Source: Crossaster papposus
Lineage: Eukaryota; Echinodermata; Asteroidea; Velatida; Solasteridae
Reading direction: 5' to 3'
DNA length: 64,000 nucleotides
Assembly (NCBI GenBank): GCA_037893245.1
Contig: JBAIAA010000011.1
Location: 306,397-370,396 of the forward strand
Of the stretch, positions 260 to 64,000 are shown in pieces. The notes beneath the pieces were generated by a model. It was not told the DNA's origin and searched no databases. It worked only from the letters and a program-made list of their open reading frames with translations. Position numbers and translations under genes: made by a program. Each line of letters opens with the position of its first letter. The first letter of the stretch is position 1.

Positions 260-500
260 GCTTGCTTGAGCTGCACCAATGAAGCTTGTTGACGCTACAA
301 TGAAGAGCATGCTGTGAAACACTTCCAGGAGACCAAACACCATTGAGGTCAATGACAGATATGTGTTTTGGTGAGTTAGGGTGCCATACTCTACAAACAA
401 TTGGTTGGTCACCACTCAAAATCGATAATTACACATTTGATGTGAAACTGCCTTGTTGAATTTACTAGAAACCATAACTATATCCTGGCAAATTCAAACA

Positions 501-537
501 CCATATGTGACCTGTTCCCACGAAACCCGGACAAAGT
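501..537 (+). repeat. Left 37-bp terminal inverted repeat
   Basis: Identical over 37 bases to the reverse complement of 6894-6930. Identity stops at the next inner base (A at 538). Confidence 0.93.
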
Positions 538-539
538 AG

Positions 540-1480
540 CAAAAATAAAAATTGAGTTTAGGCTATTTTCAAATTCTCCAGCTATTCAGCTTTCTAATGA
601 TATATAATTTGTATAGTTTTTCCCTCCATATGATCCCATGTGAAGGAATTTAGACCCCAGCTTTCACCCACCCATAAACAATTATTACGAGAAAACGAGA
701 GCTGTGTTCACAGGAAAAAACTCCACAAACACGTGGTGAATGTAATGTACACGCGTCAGCGCACTCCACAAGGTCAATCCAAAACCCCATAGCAACCACT
801 GTGTTCCTATTATTGGATTAATCTGACAATTGGCACACATCAAGAACATCTCTCGACAAATATTTTCTGAAAGTTTGAACAAAGTTTATTCAATAATGCA
901 AAAGTTATGACAGTTTATTTCTGTAGTGTTTTAAGTGAAATAAAAATATATCGGCACATCCACAAAAAATACTACAGGTACATGTACGTATACATGTACA
1001 TGTACTTTACAAACACATTTTCTGTACACGTGTACATTGTTTTGTATTGTGCTTATTTGTGTACGACCTTATGTTGAATTATAGTGATCTGATATTTTGA
1101 TTACTTTACCGGTTAATGCATTTTTTTGTATTGAACAAAAATAGATGAACCAAAACATAAACAAAGTTTCAATGTGACTGGCATTAGCAATTATTAGGCC
1201 AATTAAACGTTACTGAAAATGTAAAAACTAATACCAGTACTTTAGATGCGTCACCTTTACTTCTATTAAAATTGTTAACTAAACTGTCAAGTACATGTAT
1301 CTTTGGCAATGGTACAGCGTGAACTTTCGCAAAACGTTTTATAATATTTTCCAAATACAGGTACATGTATTTTGATTATTTTAAAATGTCGGCTATCTAG
1401 AGTATACATACATCTATACTGTTTTCTTTCTGCAATTTAATAGGCTTCTGGCACTATGTATCACACACTTTAATAAGGGT
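540..1480. other. Left non-coding arm of the transposon, with GTACAT repeats
   Basis: AT-rich and without coding signal. Short palindromic TACATGTAC runs cluster at about 975-1010 and recur at 1360-1370. Such GTACAT microsatellites are frequent in several marine invertebrate genomes. Confidence 0.5.
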
Positions 1481-1748
1481 CACATGACATTCATAATAAT
1501 GCAGCTACCAGCTCTGCTTGTACAGACAAAAATCATAATGGACACCGGATTACTATTAATAGAACATCAACAAAAATATAGTATGTCCATGTATGCATAC
1601 GTAGTGGTTAACCCCCACCCCCTCCCCCCCCCCCCCAAGTTTCAAGCATGTAAGTATGTACAGTACATGTATGTAAAATGTACATGTACATGTAAAATAT
1701 ACATGTACATTATACATGTTACATGTACATGTTACATGTTACCATTAA

Positions 1749-1982
1749 CCAGTTCTCGCCGGATGACGTATATAAACGCAAACATTTCCCCAGATTCAAA
1801 ACGGATGACGCATAAACACGCCAAGTTCAAGTTCGGAAATGTATGTCAGCAGCGGGCAAGGCCGGAAATGCGTGGGTGTGCTTCCCGGCACTATCAGCCT
1901 GAACACGCTTCGGATTGAGTTTCGTTAAAAATAATCCCGCCCGTGGGCTCGGCGATGTTAAAATAATCCTGGCGCGAACTGG
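1749..1982. mobile_element. 234-bp MITE flanked by TTAA (copy 1)
   Basis: The ends are CCAGTTCTCGCCGG and, inverted, CCTGGCGCGAACTGG, immediately flanked by TTAA at 1745-1748 and 1983-1986. A TTAA target duplication with ends starting CC fits the piggyBac type, although some Kolobok-like elements also use TTAA. It has no coding capacity. Confidence 0.72.
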
Positions 1983-2190
1983 TTAATAGAACATCCAAAA
2001 AAATATAGTATGTCCATGTATGCATACGTAGTGGTTAACCCCCACCCCCCCCCCACCCCCAGTTTCAAGCATGTAAGTATGTACAGTACCGGTACATGTA
2101 TATAAAATGTACATGTACATGTAAAATATACATGTACATTGTACATGTACCTTATACATGTTACATGTACATGTTACATGTTACTATTAA

Positions 2191-2424
2191 CCAGTTCGCG
2201 CCGGATGACGTATATAAACGCAAACATTTTCCCAGATTCAAAACGGATGACGCATAAACACGCCAAGTTCAAGTTCGGAAATGTATGTCAGCAGCGGACA
2301 AGGCCAGAAATGCGTGGGTTTGCTTCCCGGCACTATTAGCCTGAACACGCTTCGGATTGAGTTTCGTTAAAAATAATCTCGCCCGTGGGCTCGGCGATGT
2401 TAAAATAATCCCGGCGCGAACTGG
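2191..2424. mobile_element. 234-bp MITE flanked by TTAA (copy 2)
   Basis: Nearly identical to the copy at 1749-1982, with a cleaner terminal repeat (CCAGTTCGCGCCGG and its inverse). TTAA lies at 2187-2190 and 2425-2428. The surrounding DNA is duplicated too, so this copy arose by tandem duplication rather than a second insertion. Confidence 0.72.
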
Positions 2425-2502
2425 TTAATAGAACATCCAAAAAAATATAGTATGTCCATGTATGCATACGTAGTGGTTAACCCCCACCCCCTCCCCCCCC
2501 CA

Positions 2503-2632
2503 GTTTCAAGCATGTAAGTATGTACAGTACATGTATGTAAAATGTACATGTACATTTTACATGTACATTATACATTGTACATGTTACATGTTACATGTTA
2601 CATGTACTGTACATACTTACATGCTTGAAACT
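2503..2632. repeat. Palindromic GTACAT-rich hairpin
   Basis: CAGTTTCAAGCATGTAAG on the left is matched by its reverse complement ending at 2632. The interior is TACATG and TTACATG repeats, so nearly the whole segment can fold on itself. Confidence 0.7.
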
Positions 2633-2634
2633 GA

Positions 2635-2803
2635 AGTGTTGAATCAACATTATAAGTGTGTGGTCAGTGACTATACTCTTTAAAATTTGGATATTCAAAC
2701 TGATAAATTTAACACTCGCGTGTTGAGCTGTATTATGCATGTAATCCAACATTTTAAAGAGTAGTCACTGACCGCACGCTTTTAATGTTGATTTTTCAAC
2801 ACT
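2635..2803. mobile_element. ~170-bp fold-back MITE
   Basis: The first ~55 bases (AGTGTTGAATCAACATTA onward, including GGTCAGTGACTA and CTTTAAAAT) match the reverse complement of the last ~57 bases with only a few differences and gaps. The loop is about 50 bases. No coding frame and no clear target duplication are seen. Confidence 0.72.
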
Positions 2804-3035
2804 TGTTGGGGTACATGTTTGTGCACATTAAAGAGTGTCATGAATAAAGGGGTTGGGTGTTGATTTCTTGTGGGAAAACTTAAATTCACACGTGTGTAGC
2901 AGATTCAGACAACACATACATGCATAATTTGTCATTATGTATAAATTAAATACTGTTGTTTTTCTTTCTCGTTAGCGAGCTGACAGCCGAAGACATTGCG
3001 TGATCCCTATAAGTTTTAAGTTCATGGTCATGTAT

Positions 3036-6000
3036 TTAGGGAAGACGAGCACGACGAGCCAGTTTGATGAGTGGTTCATCGTCATCTGTAGAGTCTACAG
3101 TTGAAGATGAATCTCCAGACGAATCTGCATCCTCAGAATCTTCCGAATCGGTCTCTGCTGGTTCAGGCGACTTAGGAGGTGGACGTGGGCAAGTGATGTC
3201 CCGTGTCGAGGCACTGCAAAACTCTCGGATGTGCTTGTGCAAATACTCCATGCGGGCAAAGGACAAACCTTGAATTAGCAGAGGCTCAGGCAAGACCCTC
3301 GGTGGCAGGTTAGATGCATCCAAGAGAAGTTGGAACTCCTGTTCAACACTCTCTGCATGCAGCTTGGAGAACACCTTTCCAGGGTGATCATGACTAAACC
3401 TGAAGTGAATAAAATGAGGGAAAAATCATAGGATCAAAAATTGTGTTGGCATTTTTGGAGATTGACCTTCATAATAATTATCTTATCCTTCAAAATATTG
3501 AAACAAACAAGTTTTTATACATGTGATGGTGTATCACAAGACTACAATAATAAGTAAACAATAAATCTTACCTCATGTGGTGGCAAGACTTGATCTTCGG
3601 CATAGGTCGAAAATATGGGGACAGGAACTCCTGCCAGTTGTACGTTGGGACGATGCCATGGCCCTTCTCTGTGCCAACAACTCGTGGCACATTTACCCCC
3701 TTCACCGAGCTTGACCGTACCACTTCTTCTAAGTCAGCCAAGCAGCTGACCATGGTTCTGCGGTACCTCTGCTTTACTAAGCCAAAACACCAATCAGGGG
3801 CAAATTTGGTGTGTCCGGCAATCATAAAGTTCACGGTGATGGACTTATGTAACCTTGTCATTGCTCTCCAGGCAAAATACCACATTACGTATTTGTTTTT
3901 ATTTTGCCCTCCACAGTTGTCACAGTGTAAATGTACCTGTTCTTCCCCGAGACCAAAGTTCTCAAAGAAGTCGTGCAAATAGCTGATGACGGCATTTGAC
4001 CCCTTGCCAACCGAAACACCTTCGTCTATTAGGTAGTTGGCCTGTTGAGGGATTGCTTCACAGCACACTCCAAAGATCCCACACTTTCTAGGACAGAGAA
4101 AGTACATGGGCCCAGGCTGAAGGGGGTCACTTGGATAGTGGACTTGCTGGGCAAAGTCAAAAGCATAATGCATTTGACCAGGTCTGCTGCAGGCATCATT
4201 GCGGCCGAGCTTCTCCCCTTCGTTGACTGCTCTCTTAGCCTCCTCTACCATGTTGCGGTACAACTCCCTCTCCATGTAGACCAGACGCAGATGCTCCTCT
4301 TGGCATTGAAGGCGTTGGAGTTTCTGGTCCTCTGGCAAATTGGCGCTGCGGTACACCCCGTTGTTATTTTGTTGACATTGCCAACACAAGTCACTCATTG
4401 GTTTTGTTGTTAAGATGAAGGGTGTGTATCTTCTCCACATCTTTGTGAAGGTCGATCGCCTCGCAACCCTGTATTCTGGATCTCCTGTGAAAATAAAGCA
4501 ATTTTTTTTTCATTAAACAATTTAATGAATTATTAACATCAGACCTTTAAAATCGCGGCGTGAATAACATCAATTACATGTACAGGGTATGTTTCTCAAT
4601 TTTTATTTTTTTTATTAACCCTAACTCCCTAGGGTGTGTGCAAAATCATATTGATTTCGGAGGATTTTAAGGACTGTAGGGTTTAAAAAATTAAATAAAA
4701 CAAATATCAATGCAAATAACAACAACAAAATTGTTTACTCGTGTATGCAAGAGGTCTATAAAACCCCAAACAGAAATAAACAACATTCTACCTGCTACAA
4801 GACGGTCTTCGTTCGTTGACTCGAGCTGCGATTTGTACTGCCGCCATATTATTGATTTATTGTCCCGCGACGGAAGGAGTCTCACTCGGGGGTCAGAACA
4901 CTTGACCCCTGGTATGCGACCTGGAATGACCATGCCCTCCCTCTCTGCATAGTTCACGATGAATGTGATGGCTCGGGTGACGTCCTTGTCTGTCAATGCT
5001 CGTGTGTTATTCCTCCTCCCCCCAGCTCTGGTTTTAATTGGAACAACGCCGTTCTGTTCATAATGCCGAATGATGCTGGACAGCTGGTCATTTCCAATAC
5101 TAAAAATAAAATACAAATCATTATAAATATCAATAAAGCCTGTATTTTACCGTTACAAAGCAGTGAAATAATACAAATCACATGCCAAAATTAAGTCGTA
5201 AAAAGAACCTCAAGCCCATTTTTATTTTGAACCCCAATAGTACTTGAATCTAAAATTTAAAACAAAACATTACTCACTATAAACACTACTGTTACTTTTG
5301 GATTACTAAGTCATTATTGTTTTCATGGATATAACAATCTTAATTTCATGCGGAAGAACGCAAATATAAATATTTTGGTTGCACCTCAACAAGAACAAAA
5401 GTGATTATATTTATTGTAAAAGCATGCTTAGCCTTAATTGTTTTTCTTAATTGAACATTATACTTACTTGTGCATGAAAAGAAATGATTTGCGGCAGACA
5501 TGTGTTCCGTCGACGAGGTACGTCACTCGGCTTCTCGTTCTGTCTGTTTGACGTGCCCGTTTAGAGCATAGATTTTTTTTATTTTTTTTTATTGTTGAGC
5601 TGATTCGTCCCATTATGAACATCTTTCTCTCTCGCTTCGTCATCTCTGCATCAGACATCTGTGCACGCAGCTGCAAGATGTAGGCTGGCTCAAACTGGTT
5701 GGTACAAGGATCTTTGTTTGGGGGGCATGTACACTTGCTAAAGTTATTAATTTTGGCCAACTCTTCGTCATTGTCTGGAGAGGTCCAGTCATCGGTACCT
5801 TCAATATCGATGATTTGCTGGGCAAGGTCAGGTACCAGGCCAACAGCACCGTCTGCTGCACCGTCTATCTCCTCTTCAACTTCAGATTCCGATGAAGGAA
5901 AATCATCGATGTCCATGGGTTCCGGCTCAGACAAATCTGAGTACAGGTCATCATTCACATCATCATCATCATCTGAAGAAATACTGTCCACGAAATATTT

Positions 6001-6126
6001 GTTCAGAAGATCAGACAAATTTGCGCTGTCCCTCCCCGACAAGCCAAGAACGAGTGCTTCGTTTAACGCTGTCTTCAGCGTCGACGAGTCAGATTTCCCC
6101 GACGAGGTTGCAGCCTTGTCCGCCAT
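3036..6126 (-). CDS. DUF7869-type putative transposase, four exons, 747 aa
   Basis: Exons are 6126-5468, 5099-4792, 4484-3572 and 3399-3036. All three introns (368, 307 and 172 bases) have GT/AG ends, and phases join without a stop to a TAA at 3038-3036. The start is the ATGGCGGAC at 6126. Residues ~50-90 are very acidic. Residues ~221-322 form a basic segment (SIIRHYEQNGVVPIKTRAGG) that could bind DNA. Residues ~338-600 match the DUF7869 family of animal proteins as I remember it: a CWQC motif near 356-359, YAFDFAQQV (Asp ~432), RKCGIFGVCCEA, HCDNCGGQNKN (Asp ~511) and GHTKFAPDWCFG (Asp ~553). The C-terminal exon has FSHDHPGKVF and a Ser/Asp/Glu-rich tail. The three Asp residues are my candidates for a DDD/E centre. 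Lying alone between perfect terminal inverted repeats makes a transposase the best reading. Domain naming is from memory. Confidence 0.8.
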
Positions 6127-6893
6127 GGAATCGGGCTGCTTTCGTGACCTTTCCGTTGTGAAATATCACAAATATGTTTGGTAACTAATACTGGATAATA
6201 ACTCACTTCAATAGGCGTAAAATCGATGTCAAACACCCACTTCTAAACACGGAAATATCTCTCTAGTCTAACAGTAGCTAGCTACAGTAGCTTACCGCTC
6301 TCGGCATGCAGCGCGGCGCGTTCCACGTTGGCTAATTCTCGTACAAACGAGATAGTCTGGTTCTCAATGCTAGCGCAAAAAACTGTACTGATAATGTACA
6401 TGAACGTTCTAAGGGAACTCAACGATAGAGTAGATCATGTGATGCAAATTGACGAATCATGCTTCTCGTTATAGACGACCTAAGCAACAAGAAAATGGTT
6501 GTTTACAAGTTTTAGCTCAGTAAAGTGCGCTCCTACTGGCTTATTATGACGTCATTTCCCAATTTTATCAATGAAAATAAATTCTGCAAGACGCCAGCTT
6601 TACGGTGATACCAAATTTGTCAAGGGGGGGAGTGTTCCGCTTTGTATGAAAGCTATTTATTTTCGGTAACTTTGCGGTGATTTGCGAACTTTTGTATAAG
6701 TCCACGCTTCTATTGTTCACCGACATCGCTCCGAAAATGGGGAAAATAAGTATTTTACGTTAACTAATTTTACTAATTTTTAGATTAAAATGATAGACGA
6801 ATATGTATAGTATATGATCATCCCCTAAATTTTTTTTGACGATTCCACCCCGAAATGACTTTGCACGCTGTTTACGCAAAATGAATCGGTGCG
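6127..6893. other. Non-coding arm upstream of the transposase gene
   Basis: It should hold the promoter and 5' leader of the minus-strand gene at 3036-6126. No TATA box at a convincing distance or other named motif was identified. The last part merges into the right terminal repeat. Confidence 0.4.
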
Positions 6894-6930
6894 ACTTTGT
6901 CCGGGTTTCGTGGGAACAGGTCACATATGG
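6894..6930 (-). repeat. Right 37-bp terminal inverted repeat
   Basis: Perfect inverted partner of 501-537. It ends 260 bases before the second USP44-like exon. Confidence 0.93.
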
Positions 6931-7374
6931 CAAACTGTACACACAAACTGTTGGACTTTGATTCTGGAGGTATGCCTAACCCAGTGTAAAAGACTGTCAG
7001 CTTAGGGGTCCAGTACCCATCCTAACGGATTTCAACAAAACCTGGTGTTGAAGTTTGACTGGATGGGGATTGGGGTGTGGTACACAAGGTATTGGTGTAA
7101 GAATTCATTTTACAGTATATAAAATATCTCACATACGCTGTTGACATGTTTGTTGATAATTTCAATTGTAAATGTGAATGTTTATTGTAGTTATGAATGC
7201 GATGACTATATTCTGAATGACAATGCACCGGGTGATTTGAAACTGCTGCGTACAACCTTGGATGCGATCACCAAACAATTGCTGTATGAAAGTCAGACGA
7301 GGAGTGGTCGTCGTCTCTTGAGGGCGCTGTCCGTTGACACTGGAGAACAAATCAAACGCAGGTATTTGTGAATT

Positions 7375-19077: not shown

Positions 19078-21418
19078 TAATAATAATAATAATACATTTA
19101 TAATGCGCACATTCCATTAAAAAAGGTTCATGTGCGCAGAACAACTTAATAAGGCGATAAACTTAATAAAGCTAACAAAACTTACTATGCAATACCAAAA
19201 TACACTACCCATAAAACATTAATTAAAAGCCATGTTAAACAAATATGTTTTCAGTTTGTTTTTGAATGTTGTGAGAGAGTGAACACATTGAATTTATATG
19301 GTAACTTATTCCACAGAAATGGTGCAGCTGCATTAAAACTTCTTCCCCCCAATGTTTTCAACATCCGTCCTTGAGGGTAATTTAAGGCAAATTTATTGCA
19401 TGAACAAAGAGAATATCTCCCAGGCCTTCTCACAATAATTAAGTCAGCCAAATAAGTAGGAGCTAAACCATGAAGAATTTTAAATGTAAGCAGCAACACC
19501 TTAAACTGAATACGAAAGGATACCGGGAGCCAATGTAAATCGCACAATGTTGAAGTTATGTGGTCACGTCGTGACAAACCGCACACTAGACGTGCAGCTT
19601 CATTCTGAACTCTCTGTAATTTAACAAGTTGAGTGTTAGGAAGGCCATAAAATAAAGCATTACAATAGTCTAAACGACTAGTCACAAAAGCATGGATTAA
19701 AACCTCCAAGGTGCCCTTAGTCAGGTATTTTCTGATCCTCCGAATGTTATGTAAGTGATAAAAAGCAACCGAGCAAACTTTAGTTATGTGCTTGTCCATA
19801 GAAAGGTTAGAATCAAGCCAAATTCCCAAATTTCGTACACATTGTGAGGAATCCACACTGACATCCCCAACTGTTAGACTGGATACGGTTGATTTGGAAA
19901 GTTGTTGCCTAGTGCCAATTGCAATGAACTCTGTTTTTGCATCATTGATCATGAGACGATTATGCAACATCCACTGACGTAAATCAGTGATGCAATTTTC
20001 CATACCAGCTACTGCTTGCTCCTGGCAAGCAGTGTCATGTGGCCTAAATGACATATATAGCTGTGTGTCATCAGCGTAACAGTGAACATTTGGAAGATGA
20101 TGTTTAATGACATCAAATAAACCAGATGAATAAATAATAAAAAGTAACGGTCCTAAACAGGATCCCTGTGGAACTCCACAATCAAGATCAAAATAGTCCG
20201 ACAGTGTTCCTTGCATCAGCACACGCTGACGTCTACCATTCAAATAGGAGCGAAACCAGTTCAATGCCAAACCAGTAACCCCAAATTTTGTTTCCAGTCT
20301 CCGCAACAAAATCCCATGGTCAACCGTATCGAAAGCGGCACTAAGATCCAACAGTACCAAAAGGGTAACATGCTGTGAGTTCATTTTCATGAGTATGTCA
20401 TTAGTGATCTTGACCAAGGCCGTTTCCGTGCTGTGGTTCTTCCTGTAGGCTGACTGTTGAGGTGGATAGAGAGAATTTAATGTCATATAACCATGAATCT
20501 GATCGTAAACCGCTCTTTCTGTCAATTTAGATACAAACTGAAGATTACTAATTGGCCAATAGTTCTAAAAGTTACTAATGTCCAAATTGACCTTTTTTAA
20601 AAGTGGAATTACAACAGCTTCCTTCCATTCATTTGGAAAAATACCAGACTGAAGCGATTGGTTAATAATTCTAGTCAATGTTGGTAACACAACATCCAAG
20701 CAATTAACAAGCAACTGTGTAGGCATGGGGTTCAAAAAGCAAGTTTTTTTTAGAGGCATTTTGAATAAGAGCCCTTACATCATGCTGGGTAAGCGCGACA
20801 AAACGATCAAACTGCACGGCTGGTCTATCCACATCAAGTTCATTAACCAAATTACATGCACCACCTGTAGAAATGATATTATCTACCGGTAATTGATTAT
20901 GAATACCGTTTATTTTCTGGACAAAAAAAATTCCAATATTATTAGCCCATTCCTGGTTGACAGTGTTATCAGACAAAATGTGTCTGTCACAGGGTTTCAG
21001 AAGTTTATTGACTAGACTAAAAAGTCTACGAAAATTGCCACTATTATCACTGACAAGGTTACTGTAAAAATCTTGACGTGCTTTATACATCATAAAATTG
21101 GTCCGATTTCTTAAGATCTTAAAACTGATCAAATCAGAGTCTTTACCAGAAAGTCGCCACTTCTTTTCAGCCTTACGACGTAACCGTTTAAGTTGTTTAA
21201 TGTGTTGGTTAAACCAGGGCACAAGTGGTCTTGAGCTGATAACTTTATTCTGCACAGGAGCATGACGATCAAGAACATTCAAAAGACTTTCATTATAGCA
21301 GTTAGTAAGATCATCAAGGTTTTCAGGTGGATTTAAACAAACTTCTGACAGAGCCAAATCATCCTTAAAGGATTCGATTTTAATTGATTTTACTCTTCGG
21401 TAATGCGGTAATGACTTA
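19078..21418 (-). mobile_element. 5'-truncated CR1-like LINE, inactive
   Basis: Minus-strand reverse transcriptase sequence ends in a 3' tail of ATT repeats (19078-19095 on the plus strand). The endonuclease domain is absent, because homology starts near 21418, so the copy is 5'-truncated as is usual for LINEs. It carries a frameshift and a stop (see the gene entry). Confidence 0.88.
19251..21418 (-). pseudogene. LINE ORF2 remnant: linker and reverse transcriptase
   Basis: In the non-LTR family this protein nicks DNA and copies its RNA at the nick. Segment ~21418-20750 is the region between endonuclease and RT (LDRHAPVQNKVISSRPLVPW). Segment 20759-20565 has the RT start (WKEAVVIPLLKK). Segment 20525-19251 has the palm: [29 protein letters not shown] and the catalytic YADDTQLY, followed by thumb and C-terminal sequence ([18 protein letters not shown]). 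A one-base slip in the T run at ~20740-20752 breaks the frame, and a stop follows DISNF near 20565. The clade is CR1/L2-like by motif style. It is not functional. Confidence 0.88.
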
Positions 21419-23160
21419 AAAACTACATTTAATATTTGAGTTCAAGTAAAAGCACTATAGGCCATGCACCCAGCATGTAAACAAAAATGTACTGACATAA
21501 ATATGCAGGGAAGTTATACAAATACTCTATAAAAGGGTTAAGATTTGTTTAACCATTTAAAAAACAATACTTTTAGTTTTCAGGGAAAAAAACGATTCCT
21601 ATTACCTTTGTGCATTTTTTTTTTTAACAAACAATTACCACACGATTTTATTGTTATTTTTTTCCACTACAAATTCCGGCATATAAAGCAATAATGTGTG
21701 ACAGGTGGAAATGGGCTTTTCAAGTCTGGAGATGGAATTCATGCTTTTATTCCTTCATCATCAGTGGCTGCATTGCAGCATGTGCAGCCTCCCCGCCCCT
21801 CCTTTGTGGTGATCATTGGGCTTGCGGAATGTTGTGGTTTCTTTTTAGGTAACAATAGTCAAGAGAATGTATAGGTATGGCGTATGAAGCGCAATATGTG
21901 GCAGAGATAACCCCCCCCCCCTCTTTTGTGTTGACCATTGTTTTCCCGGAATCTCAGGAATTCCTTTTAGGTTTCAAGGGGGGTGGGTTAGGTTACATTT
22001 GTGTTGAGTGTGTATAAAGTATAGGGATAAGAGGGGGGTATAAGGTATGGGGGACTAATACCATGCTGGGTACGATAAATTCCAGAGCGCGGCTGGTGAA
22101 TTTCAGTTATCTGGCCCATAAACCTGTAGGCAAGTAACAATGAATTTGCATATTAGTGTGTTGCGTTTTTGGGGGTTACAAAATGCAGCACTGTCTTAAT
22201 TGTTGTGTGAGCACATTTGTATGCATAAGTTACATAACGATACCAGTCAGGCATGCCAATGGTGTACTGACTTGCATGCCTTTGCTTTTCCTTTCAAGTT
22301 ATTGCTACAACAATTTATTCATTCTGTAGTGGAGCTCTCTGGGGTGAGCAGCTATTGCTACAATGAATTAGTCATTGCGTTTTTGAGCTCCCTGCAGTGA
22401 ACAGCTATTGCTGCAATGATTTAGTCATTCTGTTTTTGAGCTCGCATGGAGTGACCAGCATCAACTCGTCTCTCCTGATATTACTTGGCCATTAGTGCTA
22501 TTGCTATAGCCAGTTTCAGTGTTTAATATGTATATACCTCTTAATTTATCGGTGCTGTTTTCCGTTTTGCAAAGTTTGACTGGCACCAGTTGAGGAACGT
22601 CACATACATGGTAAGTAAAGTGATCTTTACTGTTTTATTAAAACGTAGCTTGAATTTTGTTATTTAACTCTTGTGCAAGTTTAGGGAGTTGGACATAGTG
22701 TGACGTTATCAGCAGCGCACTTGATGAATTAATAAGTCAACAGATTTTGCGTGTGATTCATTTCCACACGCTGTCGGCGCGCAGCTCATGAAGCTCAAAG
22801 AAATTGCCCCTTTATATTCATATTTCTGAAGGTTTAGAGTAGACAAGTGTTTTTGTGATTTTGTTAGATTTGTTATTGAGGGGGGATGATTTTATAATAC
22901 AGGTAAAGTATTGAGAATGTTTAACTTTAGTTTAGGGCCTAATGTAGGCGGCAAAAGGAAAGTTTGTTTAACACATTGGCTGAATTTTGTGTCAATCTAG
23001 ATATGCTCTTTGTTTGTATAAGCCTATAAGATTAATGAAGTCGGCAGCTCGTATCCAACAAAGCCCTTCAACTGTTTAGTTTCGATTCTAAACGCTCTAT
23101 AACTTAAGGTGCACTAGCCTAATTCGAGCCCCATTGAAACTAGTGTAAAATCAATATCGT
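21419..23160. other. Intergenic DNA, no gene recognised
   Basis: No family-level coding signal. A ~58-bp imperfect repeat (GAGCTC, then CAGCTATTGCTACAATG and TTAGTCATT) occurs about three times at 22300-22465. At 22575-22612 a small exon-like piece ends in ATG followed by GTAAGT, but nothing supports a gene. Confidence 0.5.
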
Positions 23161-41540: not shown

Positions 41541-44500
41541 TCTCACATTACAAATCTGTTGCAAGTCCCTTGCATTATAAGTCTGTCACAAATCCCTCGC
41601 ATTATAAGTCTGTCGCAAGTCCCTTGCATTATAAGTCTGTCGCAAGTCCCTCGCATTATAAGTCTGTCGCAAGTCCCTCGCATTGCAAGTCTGTCACAAG
41701 TCCCTCGCATTACAAGTCTGCCACAAGTCCCTCGCATTACAAGTCTGTCACAAGTCCCTCGCATTACAAGTCTGCCACAAGTCTCTCGCATTACAAGTCT
41801 GTCGCAAGTCTCTCGCATTACAAGTCTGTCGCAAGTCTCTCGCATTACAAGTCTGTCGCAAGTTTCTCGCATTACAAGTCTGTCGCAAGTTTCTCTCATT
41901 ACAAGTCTGTCGCAAGTTTCTCTCATTACAAGTCTGTCGCAAGTTCCTCTCATTACAAGTCTGTCGCAAGTTCCTCTCATTACAAGTCTGTCGCAAGTTC
42001 CTCTCATTACAAGTCTGTCGCAAGTTCCTCTCATTACAAGTCTGTCGCAAGTTCCTCTCATTACAAGTCTGTCGCAAGTCCCTCGCATTACAAGTCTGTC
42101 GCAAGTCCCTCGCATTACAAGTCTGTCGCAAGTCCCTCGCATTACAAGTCTGTCGCAAGTCCCTCGCATTACAAGTCTGTCGCAAGTCCCTCGCAATCCA
42201 AGTCTGTCGCAAGTCCCTCGCAATCCAAGTCTGTCGCAAGTCCCTCTCATTACAAGTCTGTCGCAAGTTCCTCTCATTACAAGTCTGTCGCAAGTTCCTC
42301 TCATTACAAGTCTGTCGCAAGTTCCTCTCATTACAAGTCTGTCGCAAGTTCCTCTCATTACAAGTCTGTCGCAAGTTCCTCTCATTACAAGTCTGTCGCA
42401 AGTTCCTCTCATTACAAGTCTGTCGCAAGTTCCTCTCATTACAAGTCTGTCGCAAGTTCCTCTCATTACAAGTCTGTCGCAAGTTCCTCTCATTACAAGT
42501 CTGTCGCAAGTTCCTCTCATTACAAGTCTGTCGCAAGTTCCTCTCATTACAAGTCTGTCGCAAGTTCCTCTCATTACAAGTCTGTCGCAAGTTCCTCTCA
42601 TTACAAGTCTGTCGCAAGTTCCTCTCATTACAAGTCTGTCGCAAGTTCCTCTCATTACAAGTCTGTCGCAAGTTCCTCTCATTACAAGTCTGTCGCAAGT
42701 TCCTCGCATTACAAGTCTGTCGCAAGTCCCTCGCATTGAAAGTCTGTCGCAAGTTCCTCGCATTACAAGTCTGTCGCAAGTCCCTCGCATTCCTAGTCTG
42801 TCGCAAGTCCCTCGCATTACTAGTCTGTCGCAAGTCCCTCGCATTACAAGTCTGTCGCAAGTCCCTCACATTACAAGTCTGTCGCAAGTTCCTTTCATTA
42901 CAAGTTTGTCGCAAGTTCCTCTCATTACAAGTCTGTCACAAGTTCCTCTCATTACAAGTCTGTCGCAAGTTCCTCTCATTACAAGTCTGTCGCAAGTTCC
43001 TCTCATTACAAGTCTGTCGCAAGTTCCTCTCATTACAAGTCTGTCGCAAGTCTCTCGCATTACTAGTCTGTCGCAAGTTCCTCTCATTACAAGTCTGTTG
43101 CAAGTTTCTCTCGCATTACTAGTCTGTCGCAAGTTCCTCTCATTACAAGTCTGTCGCAAGTTCCTCTCATTACAAGTCTGTCGCAAGTCCCTCTCATTAC
43201 AAGTCTGTCGCAAGTCCCTCGCATTACTAGTCTGTCGCAAGTTTCTCGCATTACAAGTCTGTCGCAAGTTTCTCGCATTACAAGTCTGTCGCAAGTTCCT
43301 CTCATTACAAGTCTGTCGCAAGTTCCTCTCATTACAAGTCTGTCGCAAGTTCCTCTCATTACAAGTCTGTCGCAAGTTCCTCTCATTACAAGTCTGTCGC
43401 AAGTCCCTGGCATTGAAAGTCTGTCGCAAGTTCCTCTCATTACAAGTCTGTCGCAAGTCCCTCGCATTACAAGTCTGTCGCAAGTCCCTCGCATTACAAG
43501 TCTGTCGCAAGTTCCTCTCATTACAAGTCTGTCGCAAGTTCCTCTCATTACAAGTCTGTCGCAAGTCTCTAGCATTACAAGTTTGTCGCAAGTCTCTAGC
43601 ATTACAAGTTTGTCGCAAGTCTTTCGCATTGAAAGTCTGTCGCAAGTCCCTCGCATTACTAGTCTGTCGCAAGTCTCTCGCATTGCAAGTCTGTCGCAAG
43701 TCTCTCGCATTGCAAGTCTGTCGCAAGTTCCTCTCATTACAAGTCTGTCGCAAGTTCCTCTCATTACAAGTCTGTCGCAAGTTCCTCTCATTACAAGTCT
43801 GTCGCAAGTTCCTCTCATTACAAGTCTGTCGCAAGTTCCTCTCATTACAAGTCTGTCGCAAGTTCCTCTCATTACAAGTCTGTCGCAAGTTCCTCTCATT
43901 ACAAGTCTGTCGCAAGTTCCTCTCATTACAAGTCTGTCGCAAGTCTCTCGCATTACTAGTCTGTCGCAAGTCCCTCTCATTACAAGTCTGTCGCAAGTTC
44001 CTCTCATTACAAGTCTGTCGCAAGTTCCTCTCATTACAAGTCTGTCGCAAGTCCCTCTCATTACAAGTCTGTCGCAAGTCCCTCTCATTACAAGTCTGTC
44101 GCAAGTCCCTCTCATTACTAGTCTGTCGCAAGTCCCTCTCATTACAAGTCTGTCGCAAGTTCCTCTCATTACAAGTCTGTCGCAAGTTCCTCTCATTACA
44201 AGTCTGTCGCAAGTTCCTCTCATTACAAGTCTGTCGCAAGTTCCTCTCATTACAAGTCTGTCGCAAGTTCCTCTCATTACAAGTCTGTCGCAAGTTCCTC
44301 TCATTACAAGTCTGTCGCAAGTTCCTCTCATTACAAGTCTGTCGCAAGTTCCTCTCATTACAAGTCTGTCGCAAGTTCCTCTCATTACAAGTCTGTCGCA
44401 AGTTCCTCTCATTACAAGTCTGTCGCAAGTTCCTCTCATTACAAGTCTGTCGCAAGTTCCTCTCATTACAAGTCTGTCGCAAGTTCCTCTCATTACAAGT

Positions 44501-47500
44501 CTGTCGCAAGTTCCTCTCATTACAAGTCTGTCGCAAGTTCCTCTCATTACAAGTCTGTCGCAAGTTCCTCTCATTACAAGTCTGTCGCAAGTTCCTCTCA
44601 TTACAAGTCTGTCGCAAGTCTCTCGCATTACTAGTCTGTCGCAAGTCCCTCTCATTACAAGTCTGTCGCAAGTTCCTCTCATTACAAGTCTGTCGCAAGT
44701 TCCTCTCATTACAAGTCTGTCGCAAGTCCCTCTCATTACAAGTCTGTCGCAAGTCCCTCTCATTACAAGTCTGTCGCAAGTCTCTCGCATTACTAGTCTG
44801 TCGCAAGTCCCTCTCATTACAAGTCTGTCGCAAGTTCCTCTCATTACCAGTCTGTCGCAAGTTCCTCTCATTACAAGTCTGTCGCAAGTTCCTCTCATTA
44901 CAAGTCTGTCGCAAGTTCCTCTCATTACAAGTCTGTCGCAAGTTCCTCTCATTACAAGTCTGTCGCAAGTTCCTCTCATTACAAGTCTGTCGCAAGTCTC
45001 TAGCATTACAAGTTTGTCGCAAGTCTCTAGCATTACAAGTTTGTCGCAAGTCTCTAGCATTACAAGTTTGTCGCAAGTCTTTCGCATTGAAAGTCTGTCG
45101 CAAGTCCCTCGCATTACTAGTCTGTCGCAAGTCTCTCGCATTGCAAGTCTGTCGCAAGTTCCTCTCATTACAAGTCTGTCGCAAGTTCCTCTCATTACAA
45201 GTCTGTCGCAAGTTCCTCGCATTACAAGTCTGTCGCAAGTTTCTCGCATTACAAGTCTGTCGCAAGTTTCTCGCATTACAAGTCTGTCGCAAGTTTCTCG
45301 CATTACAAGTCTGTCGCAAGTTTCTCGCATTACAAGTCTGTCGCAAGTTCCTCTCATTACAAGTCTGTCGCAAGTCCCTCGCATTACTAGTCTTTCGCAA
45401 GTTCCTCTCATTACAAGTCTGTCGCAAGTTCCTCTCATTACAAGTCTGTCGCAAGTTCCTCTCATTACAAGTCTGTCGCAAGTTCCTCTCATTACAAGTC
45501 TGTCGCAAGTTCCTCTCATTACAAGTCTGTCGCAAGTTCCTCTCATTACAAGTCTGTCGCAAGTTCCTCTCATTACAAGTCTGTCGCAAGTTCCTCTCAT
45601 TACAAGTCAGTAGTAAGTTCCTCTCATTACAAGTCTGTCGCAAGTTTCTCGCATTACAAGTCTGTCGCAAGTTTCTCGCATTACAAGTCTGTCGCAAGTT
45701 TCTCGCATTACAAGTCTGTCGCAAGTTCCTCTCATTACAAGTCTGTCGCAAGTCCCTCGCATTACTAGTCTTTCGCAAGTTCCTCTCATTACAAGTCTGT
45801 CGCAAGTTCCTCTCATTACAAGTCTGTCGCAAGTTCCTCTCATTACAAGTCAGTCGCAAGTTCCTCTCATTACAAGTCTGTCGCAAGTTTCTCGCATTAC
45901 AAGTCTGTCGCAAGTTTCTCGCATTACAAGTCTGTCGCAAGTTTCTCGCATTACAAGTCTGTCGCAAGTTCCTCTCATTACAAGTCTGTCGCAAGTTCCT
46001 CTCATTACAAGTCTGTCGCAAGTTCCTCTCATTACAAGTCTGTCGCAAGTTCCTCTCATTACAAGTCTGTCGCAAGTCTCTCGCATTACTAGTCTGTCGC
46101 AAGTCCCTCTCATTACAAGTCTGTCGCAAGTCCCTCTCATTACAAGTCTGTCGCAAGTCCCTCTCATTACAAGTCTGTCGCAAGTCCCTCGCATTACAAG
46201 TCTGTCGCAAGTTCCTCTCATTACAAGTCTGTCGCAAGTTCCTCTCATTACAAGTCTGTCGCAAGTTCCTCTCATTACAAGTCTGTCGCAAGTTCCTCTC
46301 ATTACAAGTCTGTCGCAAGTTCCTCTCATTACAAGTCTGTCGCAAGTTCCTCTCATTACAAGTCTGTCGCAAGTTCCTCTCATTACAAGTCTGTCGCAAG
46401 TTCCTCGCATTACAAGTCTGTCGCAAGTTTCTCGCATTACAAGTCTGTCGCAAGTTTCTCGCATTACAAGTCTGTCGCAAGTTTCTCGCATTACAAGTCT
46501 GTCGCAAGTTCCTCTCATTACAAGTCTGTGGCAAGTTCCTCTCATTACAAGTCTGTCGCAAGTTCCTCTCATTACAAGTCTGTCGCAAGTTCCTCTCATT
46601 ACAAGTCTGTCGCAAGTTACTCTCATTACAAGTCTGTGGCAAGTTCCTCTTATTACAAGTCTGTCGCAAGTTCCTTTCATTACAAGTCTGTCGCAAGTTC
46701 CTTTCATTACAAGTCTGTCGCAAGTTCCTCTCATTACAAGTCTGTCGCAAGTTCCTTTCATTACAAGTCTGTCGCAAGTTCCTCTCATTACAAGTCTGTC
46801 GCAAGTTCCTCTCATTACAAGTCTGTCGCAAGTTCCTCTCATTACAAGTCTGTCGCAAGTTCCTCTCATTACAAGTCTGTCGCAAGTTCCTCTCATTACA
46901 AGTCTGTCGCAAGTTCCTCTCATTACAAGTCTGTCGCAAGTCCCTCGCATTGAAAGTCTGTCGCAAGTTCCTCTCATTACAAGTCTGTCGCAAGTCCCTC
47001 GCGATACAAGTCTGTCGCAAGTTCCTCTCATTACAAGTCTGTCGCAAGTTCCTCTCATTACAAGTCTGTCGCAAGTTCCTCTCATTACAAGTCTGTCGCA
47101 AGTTCCTCTCATTACAAGTCTGTCGCAAGTTCCTCTCATTACAAGTCTGTCGCAAGTTCCTCTCATTACAAGTCTGTCGCAAGTTCCTCTCATTACAAGT
47201 CTGTCGCAAGTTCCTCTCATTACAAGTCTGTCGCAAGTTCCTCTCATTACAAGTCTGTCGCAAGTCTCTCGCATTACTAGTCTGTCGCAAGTCCCTCTCA
47301 TTACAAGTCTGTCGCAAGTTCCTCTCATTACAAGTCTGTCGCAAGTTCCTCTCATTACAAGTCTGTCGCAAGTCCCTCTCATTACAAGTCTGTCGCAAGT
47401 CCCTCTCATTACAAGTCTGTCGCAAGTCTCTCGCATTACTAGTCTGTCGCAAGTCCCTCTCATTACAAGTCTGTCGCAAGTTCCTCTCATTACCAGTCTG

Positions 47501-49283
47501 TCGCAAGTTCCTCTCATTACAAGTCTGTCGCAAGTTCCTCTCATTACAAGTCTGTCGCAAGTTCCTCTCATTACAAGTCTGTCGCAAGTTCCTCTCATTA
47601 CAAGTCTGTCGCAAGTTCCTCTCATTACAAGTCTGTCGCAAGTTCCTCTCATTACAAGTCTGTCGCAAGTTCCTCTCATTACAAGTCTGTCGCAAGTTCC
47701 TCCCATTACAAGTCTGTCGCAAGTTCCTCTCATTACAAGTCTGTCGCAAGTTCCTCTCATTACAAGTCTGTCGCAAGTTCCTCTCATTACAAGTCTGTCG
47801 CAAGTTCCTCTCATTACAAGTCTGTCGCAAGTCTCTAGCATTACAAGTTTGTCGCAAGTCTCTAGCATTACAAGTTTGTCGCAAGTCTTTCGCATTGAAA
47901 GTCTGTCGCAAGTCCCTCGCATTACTAGTCTGTCGCAAGTCTCTCGCATTGCAAGTCTGTCGCAAGTTCCTCTCATTACAAGTCTGTCGCAAGTTCCTCT
48001 CATTACAAGTCTGTCGCAAGTTCCTCTCATTACAAGTCTGTCGCAAGTTCCTCTCATTACAAGTCTGTCGCAAGTTCCTCTCATTACAAGTCTGTCGCAA
48101 GTTCCTCTCATTACAAGTCTGTCGCAAGTTCCTCTCATTACAAGTCTGTCGCAAGTTCCTCTCATTACAAGTCTGTCGCAAGTTCCTCTCATTACAAGTC
48201 TGTCGCAAGTTCCTCTCATTACAAGTCTGTCGCAAGTTCCTCTCATTACAAGTCTGTCGCAAGTCCCTCGCATTACTAGTCTGTCGCAAGTCCCTCGCAT
48301 TACTAGTCTGTCGCAAGTCTCTCGCATTACAAGTCTGTCGCAAGTTCCTCTCATTACAAGTCTGTCGCAAGTTTCTCGCATTACAAGTCTGTCGCAAGTT
48401 TCTCGCATTACAAGTCTGTCGCAAGTTCCTCTCATTACAAGTCTGTCGCAAGTTCCTCTCATTACAAGTCTGTCGCAAGTTCCTCTCATTACAAGTCTGT
48501 CGCAAGTTCCTCTCATTACAAGTCTGTCGCAAGTTCCTCTCATTACAAGTCTGTCGCAAGTTCCTCTCATTACAAGTCTGTCGCAAGTTCCTCTCATTAC
48601 AAGTCTGTCGCAAGTTCCTCTCATTACAAGTCTGTCGCAATTCCCTCGCATTACTAGTCTGTCGCAAGTCTCTCGCATTACAAGTCTGTCGCAAGTTCCT
48701 CTCATTACAAGTCTGTCGCAAGTTCCTCTCATTACAAGTCTGTCGCAAGTTCCTCTCATTACAAGTCTGTCGCAAGTCCCTCACATTGTAAGTCTGTCGC
48801 AAGTCCTTCCCGTTGCAATTCCCTCAAAGTCTCTAGCATTACAAGTTTGTCGCAAGTCTCTAGCATTACAAGTTTGTAACAATTCTCTAGCGTTACAAGT
48901 TTGTAACAATTCTCTAGCATTACAAGTTTGTCGCAAGTCTCTAGCATTACAAGTTTGTCGCAATTCTCTAGCATTACAAGTTTGTCGCAATTCTCTAGCA
49001 TTACAAGTTTGTAACAATTCTCTAGCATTACAAGTTTGTCGCAATTCTCTAGCATTACAAGTTTGTCGCAATTCTCTAGCATTACAAGTTTGTCGCAATT
49101 CTCTAGCATTACAAGTTTGTAACAATTCTCTAGCATTACAAGTTTGTCGCAAGTCTCTAGCATTACAAGTTTGTCGCAAGTCTCTAGCATTACAAGTCTG
49201 TCGCAAGTCTCTAGCATTACAAGTTTGTAACAATTTTCTAGCATTGTAAGTCTGTCGCAAGTCCCTCGCATTGTAAGTCTGTC
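41541..49283. repeat. ~7.7-kb satellite of 27-bp units (~287 copies)
   Basis: The unit is 27 bases with core TACAAGTCTGTCGCAAGT, followed by TCCTCTCAT or CCCTCGCAT. Length divisible by 3 and absence of stops leave very long frames open on both strands (2,421 codons on plus, 1,978 on minus). These are artefacts. A marked five-monomer block (CTTTCGCATTGAAAG) recurs at 43621, 45079 and 47887, spaced exactly 54 and 104 monomers. The right end (48830-49240) holds a distinct subfamily with CTCTAGCATTACAAGTTTG. Confidence 0.95.
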
Positions 49284-58465: not shown

Positions 58466-59009
58466 ATCCAATAAATTTCAATAAATTTAAATAAATTTGA
58501 ATAAATTTACATAAAATCTTTCAAATTTACATAAAATCTTCCAAATTTAAATAAATTTAAATAAATTTAAATAAATTCCCCCAAATTCCCCCAAATTCCC
58601 CCAAATTCCCCCAAATTTACATAAATTTACATAAATTTACATAAATTTACATAAATTTACATAAATTTACATAAATTTACATAAATGTACATAAATTTAC
58701 ATAAATTTAAATAAATTTACATAAATTTAAATAACTTTAAATAACTTTAAATAAATTTACATAAATTTACATAAATTTACATAAATTTACATAAATTTAC
58801 ATAAATTTACATAAATTTACATAAATTTACATAAATTTACATAAATTTACATAAATTTACATAAATTTACATAAATTTACGTAAATTTACATAAATTTAC
58901 ATAAATTTACATAAATTTACATAAATTTACATAAATTTACATAAATTTACGTAAATTTATGTAAATTTACATAAAAATACATAAAAATTAGCATAAATTA
59001 ACATAAATT
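58466..59009. repeat. 10-bp satellite ATAAATTTAC
   Basis: About 50 copies of the 10-base unit, with a short CCCCCAAATT interruption at 58576-58615. It ends directly against the interstitial telomere tract. Confidence 0.93.
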
Positions 59010-59592
59010 TTAGGGTTAGGGTTAGGGTTAGGGGTTAGGGTTAGGGGTTAGGGTTAGGGTTAGGGTTAGGGTTAGGGTTAGGGTTAGGGTTAGGGTTAGG
59101 GTTAGGGTTAGGGTTAGGGTTAGGGTTAGGGGTTAGGGTTAGGGTTAGGGTTAGGGTTAGGGTTAGGGTTAGGGTTAGGGTTAGGGTTAGGGTTAGGGTT
59201 AGGGTTAGGGTTAGGGTTAGGGTTAGGGTTAGGGTTAGGGTTAGGGTTAGGGTTAGGGTTAGGGGTTAGGGTTAGGGGTTAGGGTTAGGGTTAGGGTTAG
59301 GGTTAGGGTTAGGGTTAGGGTTAGGGTTAGGGTTAGGGTTAGGGTTAGGGTTAGGGTTAGGGTTAGGGTTAGGGTTAGGGTTAGGGTTAGGGTTAGGGTT
59401 AGGGTTAGGGTTAGGGTTAGGGTTAGGGTTAGGGTTAGGGTTAGGGTTAGGGTTAGGGTTAGGGTTAGGGTTAGGGTTAGGGTTAGGGTTAGGGTTAGGG
59501 GTTAGGGTTAGGGTTAGGGTTAGGGTTAGGGTTAGGGTTAGGGTTAGGGTTAGGGTTAGGGTTAGGGTTAGGGTTAGGGTTAGGGTTAGGGA
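59010..59592. repeat. Interstitial telomere tract (TTAGGG)n
   Basis: About 97 TTAGGG units in the same orientation as the terminal telomere, with a few TTAGGGG variants. It ends at GATAGGCTACTTG. Confidence 0.95.
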
Positions 59593-60905
59593 TAGGCTAC
59601 TTGTCGGTAGTCTATTTCGTGCGACCCCCCTCGATTTTTTTTTAATTAATAGAGGTCAAAGGTCACAACCCACTTGACCCATACGTGACCTCCTGGTTCT
59701 TAACTAGTACAGACGGGGGGGTGGGGGGGTCAGAGGTCAGTGCACAAAGCATAGGAAGTAAACTTTGAGAGGTCACGACCTTTGAACCCGTACTAGTTAA
59801 GAACCCAGAGGTCACCAAAAACTGCGCCCGGGGGGGTCGAACCTTGACCCCGACCCATGACCCCCGGGGTCAAACTAGGCGGAAGGGGCGTAACTTTGCG
59901 TATGCAAATATGCCCAGTCTTCGGACACAACAACAGAGATAACATAAGATTCGTAGTCTTGTTTATCGTTAGTGTATAATACAAGTGCCATAAAAGGTCA
60001 TAACGTTTGACCCGTGGGTAGTAACGGACTCCAAGTTTAATAGAAGAGACCTCGTGTCGAGGCGAACATCCACTCCGACCCACGACCCCAGGGGCCATCT
60101 GAAATAACAGAAATAACATAAGAAATTCCCAAATACAGAAATAACATAAGAAATTCCAAATTTCTGAAATCGTTTGAAACATATGCAGAACATATAACCA
60201 TTTGCAAAATTTTGGTATGAAAACTCTACGCAAATGTATAAGAATATACAAATAAAATAAAATATTACAAGGACACCAGTCAGGCTCTTGATTCTAATAC
60301 AGTTGAGAGAGTATACACTCACAATTTTTCATGCCAAATTTGGACCACGTGGCATTTTCAGTTTCAAAGTTACATGACTTTGTAAATCCCAATACCAACT
60401 GAGGGCGCCCTTTATTAACTTTGAATGTTAATAACTCCACCCCCCATTGTCCGATTGACCTCTAATTCAGGGATTGACCTCCTCTGACCCACGCACTCCA
60501 CCTGAATTTTTTTGGACCCTCAGCTTTGAACTTACATTTTTTTGAGACTTTGATAATATGATGGTGTGTAACCCTAGGTCCTACATCCCGTCCGTTTTGT
60601 GTTTCTAAGCCAAAACTCCACCCGCGAACAGTCGGTAGTCACGGACCCAAAGTTTACCATAAGTAACCTCGTGTCGAGGCGAACATCCACCCCGACCCAC
60701 AATCCCATAGACCATCTGACCTTGGAGTTATAAGAAACTTAAGATTTGAAAATAAAGAAAAACATAAGTAATTTCTGAAATCGTTCGAAACATGTGCAGA
60801 ACATAAAATCATTTTCGTAATTTTGGTAAGGAAAACACTTGTAATTTTTTCGTCCCATAAACATTAGGCTATTCTCTGTGCACAAACCTATGGAGACTGT
60901 TTGGG
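59593..60905. other. Subtelomeric segment with a diverged internal duplication
   Basis: No gene recognised. 60011-60225 and 60629-60838 are diverged copies 617 bases apart (CCTCGTGTCGAGGCGAACAT, then TGCAGAACATA). An inverted repeat pairs 59685-59710 with 59790-59815 (GGTTCTTAACTAGTAC), with two mismatches in 26 bases. Open minus frames at 59793-60322 overlap these repeats and are not convincing. Confidence 0.6.
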
Positions 60906-61128: not shown

Positions 61129-61226
61129 ATGGGTTAGGTTAATTGGTTAGGTTTATGGGTTAGGTTTAGGGTTAAGGTTAGGGTTTAGAGGTTAGGGTTA
61201 GGGTTAGTGTTTGATGTATGGGTTAG
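61129..61226. repeat. Degenerate telomere-like repeats
   Basis: TTAGGTTTATGGG, TTAGGGTTTAGAGG and similar variants grade into pure TTAGGG. This is the usual proximal edge of a telomere. Confidence 0.8.
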
Positions 61227-63617: not shown

Positions 63618-63658
<41 letters not shown>

Positions 63659-64000
63659 GGTTAGGGTTAGGGTTAGGGTTAGGGTTAGGGTTAGGGTTAG
63701 GGTTAGGGTTAGGGTTAGGGTTAGGGTTAGGGTTAGGGTTAGGGTTAGGGTTAGGGTTAGGGTTAGGGTTAGGGTTAGGGTTAGGGTTAGGGTTAGGGTT
63801 AGGGTTAGGGTTAGGGTTGGTGGGTTAGGGGTTAGGGTTAGGGTTAGGGTTAGGGTTAGGGTTGGGTAGGGTGTTAGGGGTTAGGGGTTAGGTGGGTTAG
63901 GGTTAGGGTTAGGGGTTAGGGTTAGGGTTAGGGTTGGGTGTAGGGTTTGGGTTAGGGTTAGGGTTAGGGTTAGGGTTAGGGTTAGGGTTAGGGTTAGGGT
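61227..64000. repeat. Terminal telomere (TTAGGG)n
   Basis: About 2.77 kb of nearly perfect TTAGGG running to the window edge, with the G-rich strand oriented towards the right end. A single TTTAGGG lies near 63637 and a cluster of irregular units at 63815-63955 (GTTGGTGGG, GGGTAGGGTGTTAGGGG). The long Leu-Gly and Val-Arg frames are repeat artefacts. Confidence 0.97.

Follow-up and report, generated by a model that had tools for sequence, protein, structure and literature searches.

A DUF7869 gene in a 6.4-kb mobile element of the sea star Crossaster papposus: a probable DDD transposase with single-gene relatives in bacteria

An element with a single four-exon gene

The DNA analysed here, called the window, is a stretch of 64,000 nucleotides of the sea star Crossaster papposus (GenBank assembly GCA_037893245.1, contig JBAIAA010000011.1, forward-strand positions 306,397 to 370,396); coordinates are those of the window unless a contig (C) or locus (L) is named. 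Near its left end lies an element of about 6.4 kb whose only gene encodes a protein of the Pfam family DUF7869. In an initial annotation the element was placed at 501..6930 with perfect 37-bp terminal inverted repeats (TIRs), and DUF7869 was proposed to be the transposase of a DNA transposon.

The inverted match in the window (501-541 with 6890-6930) extends over 41 nt at 98%, and its outermost 37 nt are perfect. A genome search with the two flanks joined gave 1,908 candidates, 40 of which were scored; 39 of these span the junction, 37 span the whole query, and the remaining one corresponds to the left flank in the window itself. Eight empty sites were read among these matches, with the sequence AAACACC-ATAT-GGCAAAC exact in six and in variant form in two, while the filled site reads AAACACC-ATAT-GTGACC...GGTCAC-ATAT-GGCAAAC. 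Since six of the eight hold the exact unfilled sequence, bases 501-502 (CC), 503-506 (ATAT), 6925-6928 (ATAT) and 6929-6930 (GG) are target sequence, and the repeat appears perfect over 37 bp because ATAT is a palindrome and the two bases next to it are symmetric already in the empty site. The empty-site comparison suggested in the initial annotation thus gives a 4-bp duplication, ATAT. The 37-nt inverted match stands, but its outer 6 bp belong to the target, and the TIR is perfect over 31 bp (507-537; 34/35 up to position 541); the element is real, but its edges move to 507-6924 (6,418 bp). A 6-bp duplication, CATATG, was rejected, as bases 1 and 6 vary among short copies of the element (see below) and the middle four agree in nine out of ten. 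The element comprises the following features:

503..506, left target site duplication, ATAT (single ATAT in six of the eight empty sites read, L059-L066)
507..541, plus strand, left TIR
3036..3399, minus strand, exon 4 with the stop codon (from the joined translation)
3572..4484, minus strand, exon 3, putative catalytic core, with D432, D511, D553 and most of DUF7869
4792..5099, minus strand, exon 2, with a weak HTH_28 match at residues 219-249 (E 0.17), followed by a stretch that aligns with bacterial GLPDPGR
5468..6126, minus strand, exon 1, with the start codon at 6126, an acidic N-terminus and a cysteine cluster including the invariant C141; colinear with the bacterial open reading frames (ORFs)
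6890..6924, minus strand, right TIR, pairing with the left one
6925..6928, right target site duplication, ATAT (from the empty-site comparison)

The gene lies on the minus strand and was recognised at the outset as four-exonic and the only one between the TIRs: all exon borders are GT/AG, and the joined exons encode 747 residues without a stop. The Pfam profile PF25273 (DUF7869) matches residues 481-641 with E = 2.8e-18 and 66.7 bits (a gathering score above 26 bits was taken as membership), which confirms the family name given in the initial annotation; Pfam indeed annotates the domain as being of unknown function. A second cysteine cluster reads D354-L-C356-x2-C359. From the exon coordinates, the codons of D432, D511 and D553 lie at 4158-4156, 3921-3919 and 3795-3793, respectively. 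A match to the solved structure of SMYD2 (E 0.027) was discarded as spurious, and a literature text search returned no mention of DUF7869, PF25273 or two of its motif strings.

Short and gene-bearing copies in the genome

The 37-mer end, with up to three mismatches, has 1,275 forward and 1,220 reverse matches in the 1.02-Gb source genome, and the reversed pattern used as a control has none; the concern that no other copies share these ends is settled by these roughly 2,500 matches. Short copies without the gene seem to make up the bulk of the 2,495 matches. One of them (L058) measures 423 bp inside its duplications and carries the same 31-bp ends as the window element, and a genome search with one copy of this class of about 0.42 kb gave 1,594 candidates, with identities of 97-100% among the 40 scored. 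Ten short copies were examined, and in nine the same four bases stand left and right (ATAT in six copies, AAAT in two, AATT in one); the exception is L073, with ATAT/ATGA. Three copies (L067, L069, L085) have common flanks and appear to be a single insertion; counted in this way, seven of eight distinct sites are duplicated. All these duplications fit AWWT, and two of the nine are the non-palindromic AAAT. The repeats do occur independently of DUF7869 genes, an outcome that the initial annotation had named as refuting its proposal, but they do so as short copies with identical ends and duplications of this kind, a common situation in non-autonomous derivatives.

Further short elements, paired by eye, have GTGACCCGCTCC-like ends and probably represent sister families: L041 33-374 (ATAT), L053 4621-5044 (ATAT) and L053 8464-9233 (AAAT). 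The last of these is interrupted by a copy of the short kind described above.

Exon 3 has 134 matches in the genome, pieces included. The gene-bearing copies close to that of the window fall into two groups, of which group A is the window type. In group A, 23 contigs share 21 bases of the outer left flank and show exon 3, as a single full-length match in 19 (16 of them stop-free) and in split form in four. Exact ends were found as 22 pairs, 5.7-24.3 kb apart, and the proposed search for end pairs around DUF7869 genes has a uniform outcome, with exon 3 inside all 22. The fetched group-A ends have the same flanks as the window, a few of them with insertions in these flanks. The flanks belong to a tandemly repeated unit of about 2.4 kb:

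351..502, left flank, part of the unit of about 2.4 kb (this part was tested; the similarity extends further out)
6929..7080, right flank, in which this unit continues (this part was tested)

Because the flanks are shared, group A looks like one insertion that was copied together with its host repeat, apparently by exchange between chromosome ends. On the same grounds, we rejected the idea that the full element had recently transposed many times. The unit of about 2.4 kb bears the insertion on at least 22 contigs, near contig ends where this was checked. Positions 61145-64000 consist of about 475 copies of TTAGGG, and the G strand runs out to the end of the window. The window thus reaches a telomere, and about 54 kb separate the element from the end of a chromosome. 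A shorter TTAGGG stretch is found at about 59,000-59,600. In ten of the 11 contigs checked (out of 23), the group-A copy lies 46.8-85.4 kb from a contig end; the eleventh has a total length of only 47.6 kb. This suggests that one insertion in a subtelomeric repeat can multiply to many chromosome ends without transposing.

Group B comprises 23 exon-3 matches with one TAA each, ending at residue 293, and two broken ones, and at the four loci compared it lacks residues 69-262 of the window protein. It resides in a different tandem unit, of about 3.14 kb: the joined flanks gave 910 candidates, and all 40 that were scored span the junction, 35 of them on contig C489, being 7 bases longer than the joined query as judged from lengths only. 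Group B, too, appears to be a single insertion that was amplified along with the repeat that hosts it. Contig C489 holds at least 35 tandem copies of this unit (3387458-3709194). Beside a group-B element, L045 7663-9498 is a minus-strand open frame of 612 codons that contains the stretch NHEEADTR and possibly belongs to the unit as one of its genes. A further joined-flank search, with M2, found no empty site: 38 of the 40 scored rows match another abundant repeat beside the insertion and two are the locus itself.

Other DUF7869 matches have identities between 84% and 24%. They include open frames of 804-818 residues at 33-34%, which may lack introns and constitute a second, multicopy DUF7869 family (C28:1130862, C45:400375, C283:284714, C17:787201). 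Among seven proteins of this genome that were scanned, covering both paralogue clades, PF25273 scores above gathering in five; the distant paralogues L092 and L093 fall below the cut-off with 22.5 and 20.5 bits.

DUF7869 genes in bacteria and the conserved aspartates

When one genome for each bacterial and archaeal species was scanned by pattern and tblastn, 29 candidate stretches emerged. Eleven of them are relatives, with hosts among Desulfobacterales, other Deltaproteobacteria, Nitrospirales, Legionellales, Thiomargarita (two), Cycloclasticus and Verrucomicrobia. No relatives were found in viral contigs by peptide-pattern scans, nor by tblastn of plasmids and of phages, and a PHROG scan with one protein gave no match. 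In Desulfocicer vacuolatum, an element of about 2.1 kb is filled by an ORF of 657 residues with perfect 43-bp inverted repeats on either side. In seven of the 11 loci (L094, L097-L101, L104), the gene stands between the arms of an inverted repeat that measures 39-61 nt and is 87-100% complementary, and in six of these seven the DUF7869 ORF occupies 73-93% of the bracketed stretch, other frames of at least 100 codons being shorter and antisense. Exact AWWT duplications flank three of the seven elements (AATT, ATTT and AAAT). The bacterial ORFs are intronless, whereas the window gene has introns, and all seven bacterial proteins scanned exceed the PF25273 cut-off (52.8-88.9 bits).

The Desulfocicer element starts inside another ORF, and its right flank seems not to continue that ORF, which may explain the absence of an exact duplication there. 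By its motif, this other ORF (L097 2638-3168) resembles an IS3-type transposase.

Eight of the 11 bacterial proteins are colinear with the animal protein over nearly the full length (29-33% identity, 75 invariant columns); this alignment leaves out the partial L103 and L104 as well as L102, which has frame breaks and is also absent from the 13-protein alignment A4 and the trees. In the core, the window family is 39-43% identical to ten of the 11 bacterial proteins and 32% to one, against 25-30% in the alignment (34% in the best local match) for the other DUF7869 family of its own genome. Three acidic residues stand out, namely D432, D511 and D553 in the motifs FDF, DNCxGQNKN and GHTKFxPD. They are spaced by 78 and 41 residues (76 and 42 in the distant animal family, 82 and 41 in one Thiomargarita protein), and all three are present in each of the 16 rows that reach the first aspartate (17 rows, one truncated). 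The paralogue L089, which has a broken end and lacks the last motif, was included in alignments A1-A3 but not in the 17-row tree.

In this tree, a branch with 100/100 support parts the window protein, two paralogues of its genome and ten bacterial proteins from the distant family L090-L093. The tree is rooted at the midpoint only, and the order within the window/bacterial side is partly open. As the window family is closer to the bacterial insertion sequences than to the other animal DUF7869 family, it is conceivable, and we put this forward tentatively, that DUF7869 elements form one transposon lineage across the two domains, with at least one passage between bacteria and animals in which the choice of AWWT targets was retained and introns were acquired.

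Transposase function, alternatives and affiliation

The intact gene between TIRs, the 4-bp duplications, the empty sites and some 2,500 ends, the enclosed exon 3 in 22 of 22 end pairs, the lone gene in six of seven bracketed bacterial elements and the conserved triad lead us to conclude that DUF7869 is most likely a DDD transposase, and at the level of sequence they support the claim of the initial annotation. We regard it as highly probable that the window element is a cut-and-paste DNA transposon with AWWT targets, in which DUF7869 forms the ribonuclease H (RNase H)-like D-D-D core of the transposase, and which is a probable member of Sola2. The four-exon gene would then encode a transposase with a predicted RNase-H-like nuclease core built around D432, D511 and D553. 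The two cysteine clusters (around C141 and D354-L-C356-x2-C359), the N-terminal parts and the segment around GLPDPGR probably recognise and bind the ends. The enzyme would recognise the GTGACCTGTTCC... inverted repeats and cut there, at GTGACC ends in the animal or GGG-type ends in bacteria, and the DNA would be joined to AT-rich 4-bp AWWT targets, which are thereby duplicated. The same enzyme or a close relative could move the gene-less copies of about 0.42 kb, and in bacteria the same kind of enzyme would act from an intronless single-gene insertion sequence.

Several observations weigh against this reading. The group-A copies share one flank pair and thus give no evidence of repeated transposition of the full element, and those of group B are defective and share flanks as well. 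Over about 110 bp of the left end, three short copies are only 76-78% similar to the window element, other end matches among those listed show a CCAACG variant, and the mobiliser of the short copies may be a relative of the window transposase. Among the bacterial loci, four have no acceptable inverted repeat (L095 starts inside the ORF, L103 is a fragment, and the pairs seen in L096 and L102 are no better than 64 nt at 75% and 28 nt at 71%, respectively), L104 has its gene split into two overlapping frames, and the flanks of four of the seven bracketed elements are inexact (AAAT/ATTT, ATAT/ATTT twice, and ATAT/ATGT). Nine of the 11 bacterial genomes have a single match and two hold 2-3 pieces, and the family is rare, as in a phylum sample only one of 395 genomes, the query genome itself, had a match at E 1e-10. 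Finally, sequence searches of solved structures found no transposase.

DUF7869 could instead be a passenger, the ends being mobilised in trans by a transposase encoded elsewhere. The gene-less ends do far outnumber the gene-bearing copies (about 2,500 against the 134 exon-3 matches), and those of the window type go back to a single insertion. Yet six of the seven bacterial elements have no long frame besides the DUF7869 ORF within their inverted repeats, and so no other candidate for the transposase, and the acidic triad is invariant across bacteria and animals; we consider a passenger role very improbable. An inverted repeat that by chance surrounds a resident host gene of a subtelomeric repeat would agree with the 22 exact-end copies lying in duplicated segments, most of them near contig ends, but it is hardly credible: it is already refuted by the empty sites, and the duplications, the 2,495 end matches against none in the control, the second insertion in a different tandem unit and the bacterial counterparts all speak against it.

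If DUF7869 is a transposase, as we favour, it could still belong to a separate DDD lineage outside Sola that shares the AWWT target by chance. The comparison with Sola2 draws on published descriptions and not on protein homology, Pfam and NCBIfam scans gave no transposase name for the family, and three of 13 family members show weak similarity to the ISAzo13 DDE domain PF07592, below its cut-off (best match 14.5 bits against 26.9, E 0.018). Set against this, the length and sequence class of the duplication, the element size, the D-D-D triad and the bacterial occurrence agree with Sola and Sola2 as published, and we judge a separate lineage to be rather unlikely.

The Sola superfamily reportedly goes back to Bao et al. 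2009. We file the element as probably of Sola2 type, a group already named, because its AWWT duplications match those of published Sola2 elements. Sola elements are described as having DDD transposases and 4-bp duplications and as occurring in bacteria and metazoans (PMC10741241), they have been assigned to the RNase-H-like superfamily (PMC3985635), the duplications published for Sola2 elements are of the AWWT type (PMC3627910), and a bivalve catalogue gives 14 Sola2 and eight Sola1 consensus elements (PMC10294476). By this description, the present family resembles Sola in its hosts, in its 4-bp duplications and, as predicted, in a DDD-type enzyme: 4-bp duplications were found in nine of ten short copies, at the empty site and, in exact form, in three of seven bacterial elements, and the three aspartates are conserved in sequence with near-fixed spacing. 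It resembles Sola2 in its size, within 2-9 kb, and in its AWWT duplications (ATAT, AAAT and AATT in the animal, AATT, ATTT and AAAT in the exact bacterial cases; ATAT, AAAT and ATTT in published Sola2). Unlike the published Sola2 elements of Dictyostelium and Polysphondylium, which have TIRs of 12-21 bp and Fanzor genes, the window element has a 31-bp TIR and a single gene.

Duplications of hAT, MuDR, P and Merlin elements measure about 8-10 bp, and these superfamilies are excluded by the 4-bp length found here. Kolobok and piggyBac share an AT-rich 4-bp duplication, TIRs and a DDD/E transposase (here predicted), but they target TTAA (PMC9587614) and are excluded because the duplications here are ATAT, AAAT and AATT, with ATTT in a bacterium; Pfam also gives no match to their transposases.

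PF25273, annotated in Pfam as of unknown function, is here placed in mobile elements with defined ends and duplications, and gains a testable function as a DDD transposase; DUF7869 gene models therefore need to be checked as mobile elements before they are taken for genes of the host. For bench work, the compact bacterial elements, of about 2.1 kb with one ORF, offer an easy system.

Within the window element, two copies of a palindrome-ended repeat are nested:

1745..1986, first copy of TTAACCAGTTC...GAACTGGTTAA (similar stretches in L041 and L058)
2187..2428, second copy of TTAACCAGTTC...GAACTGGTTAA, part of an internal direct repeat of about 430 bp

These may perhaps be a short TTAA-targeting element that was duplicated along with the internal repeat. 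Elsewhere in the window, a minisatellite with a unit of 27 bp, repeated about 287 times, occupies positions 41542-49283 and contains long open frames on either strand, and minus-strand open frames at 19254-21441 have motifs resembling those of a non-long-terminal-repeat (non-LTR) reverse transcriptase.

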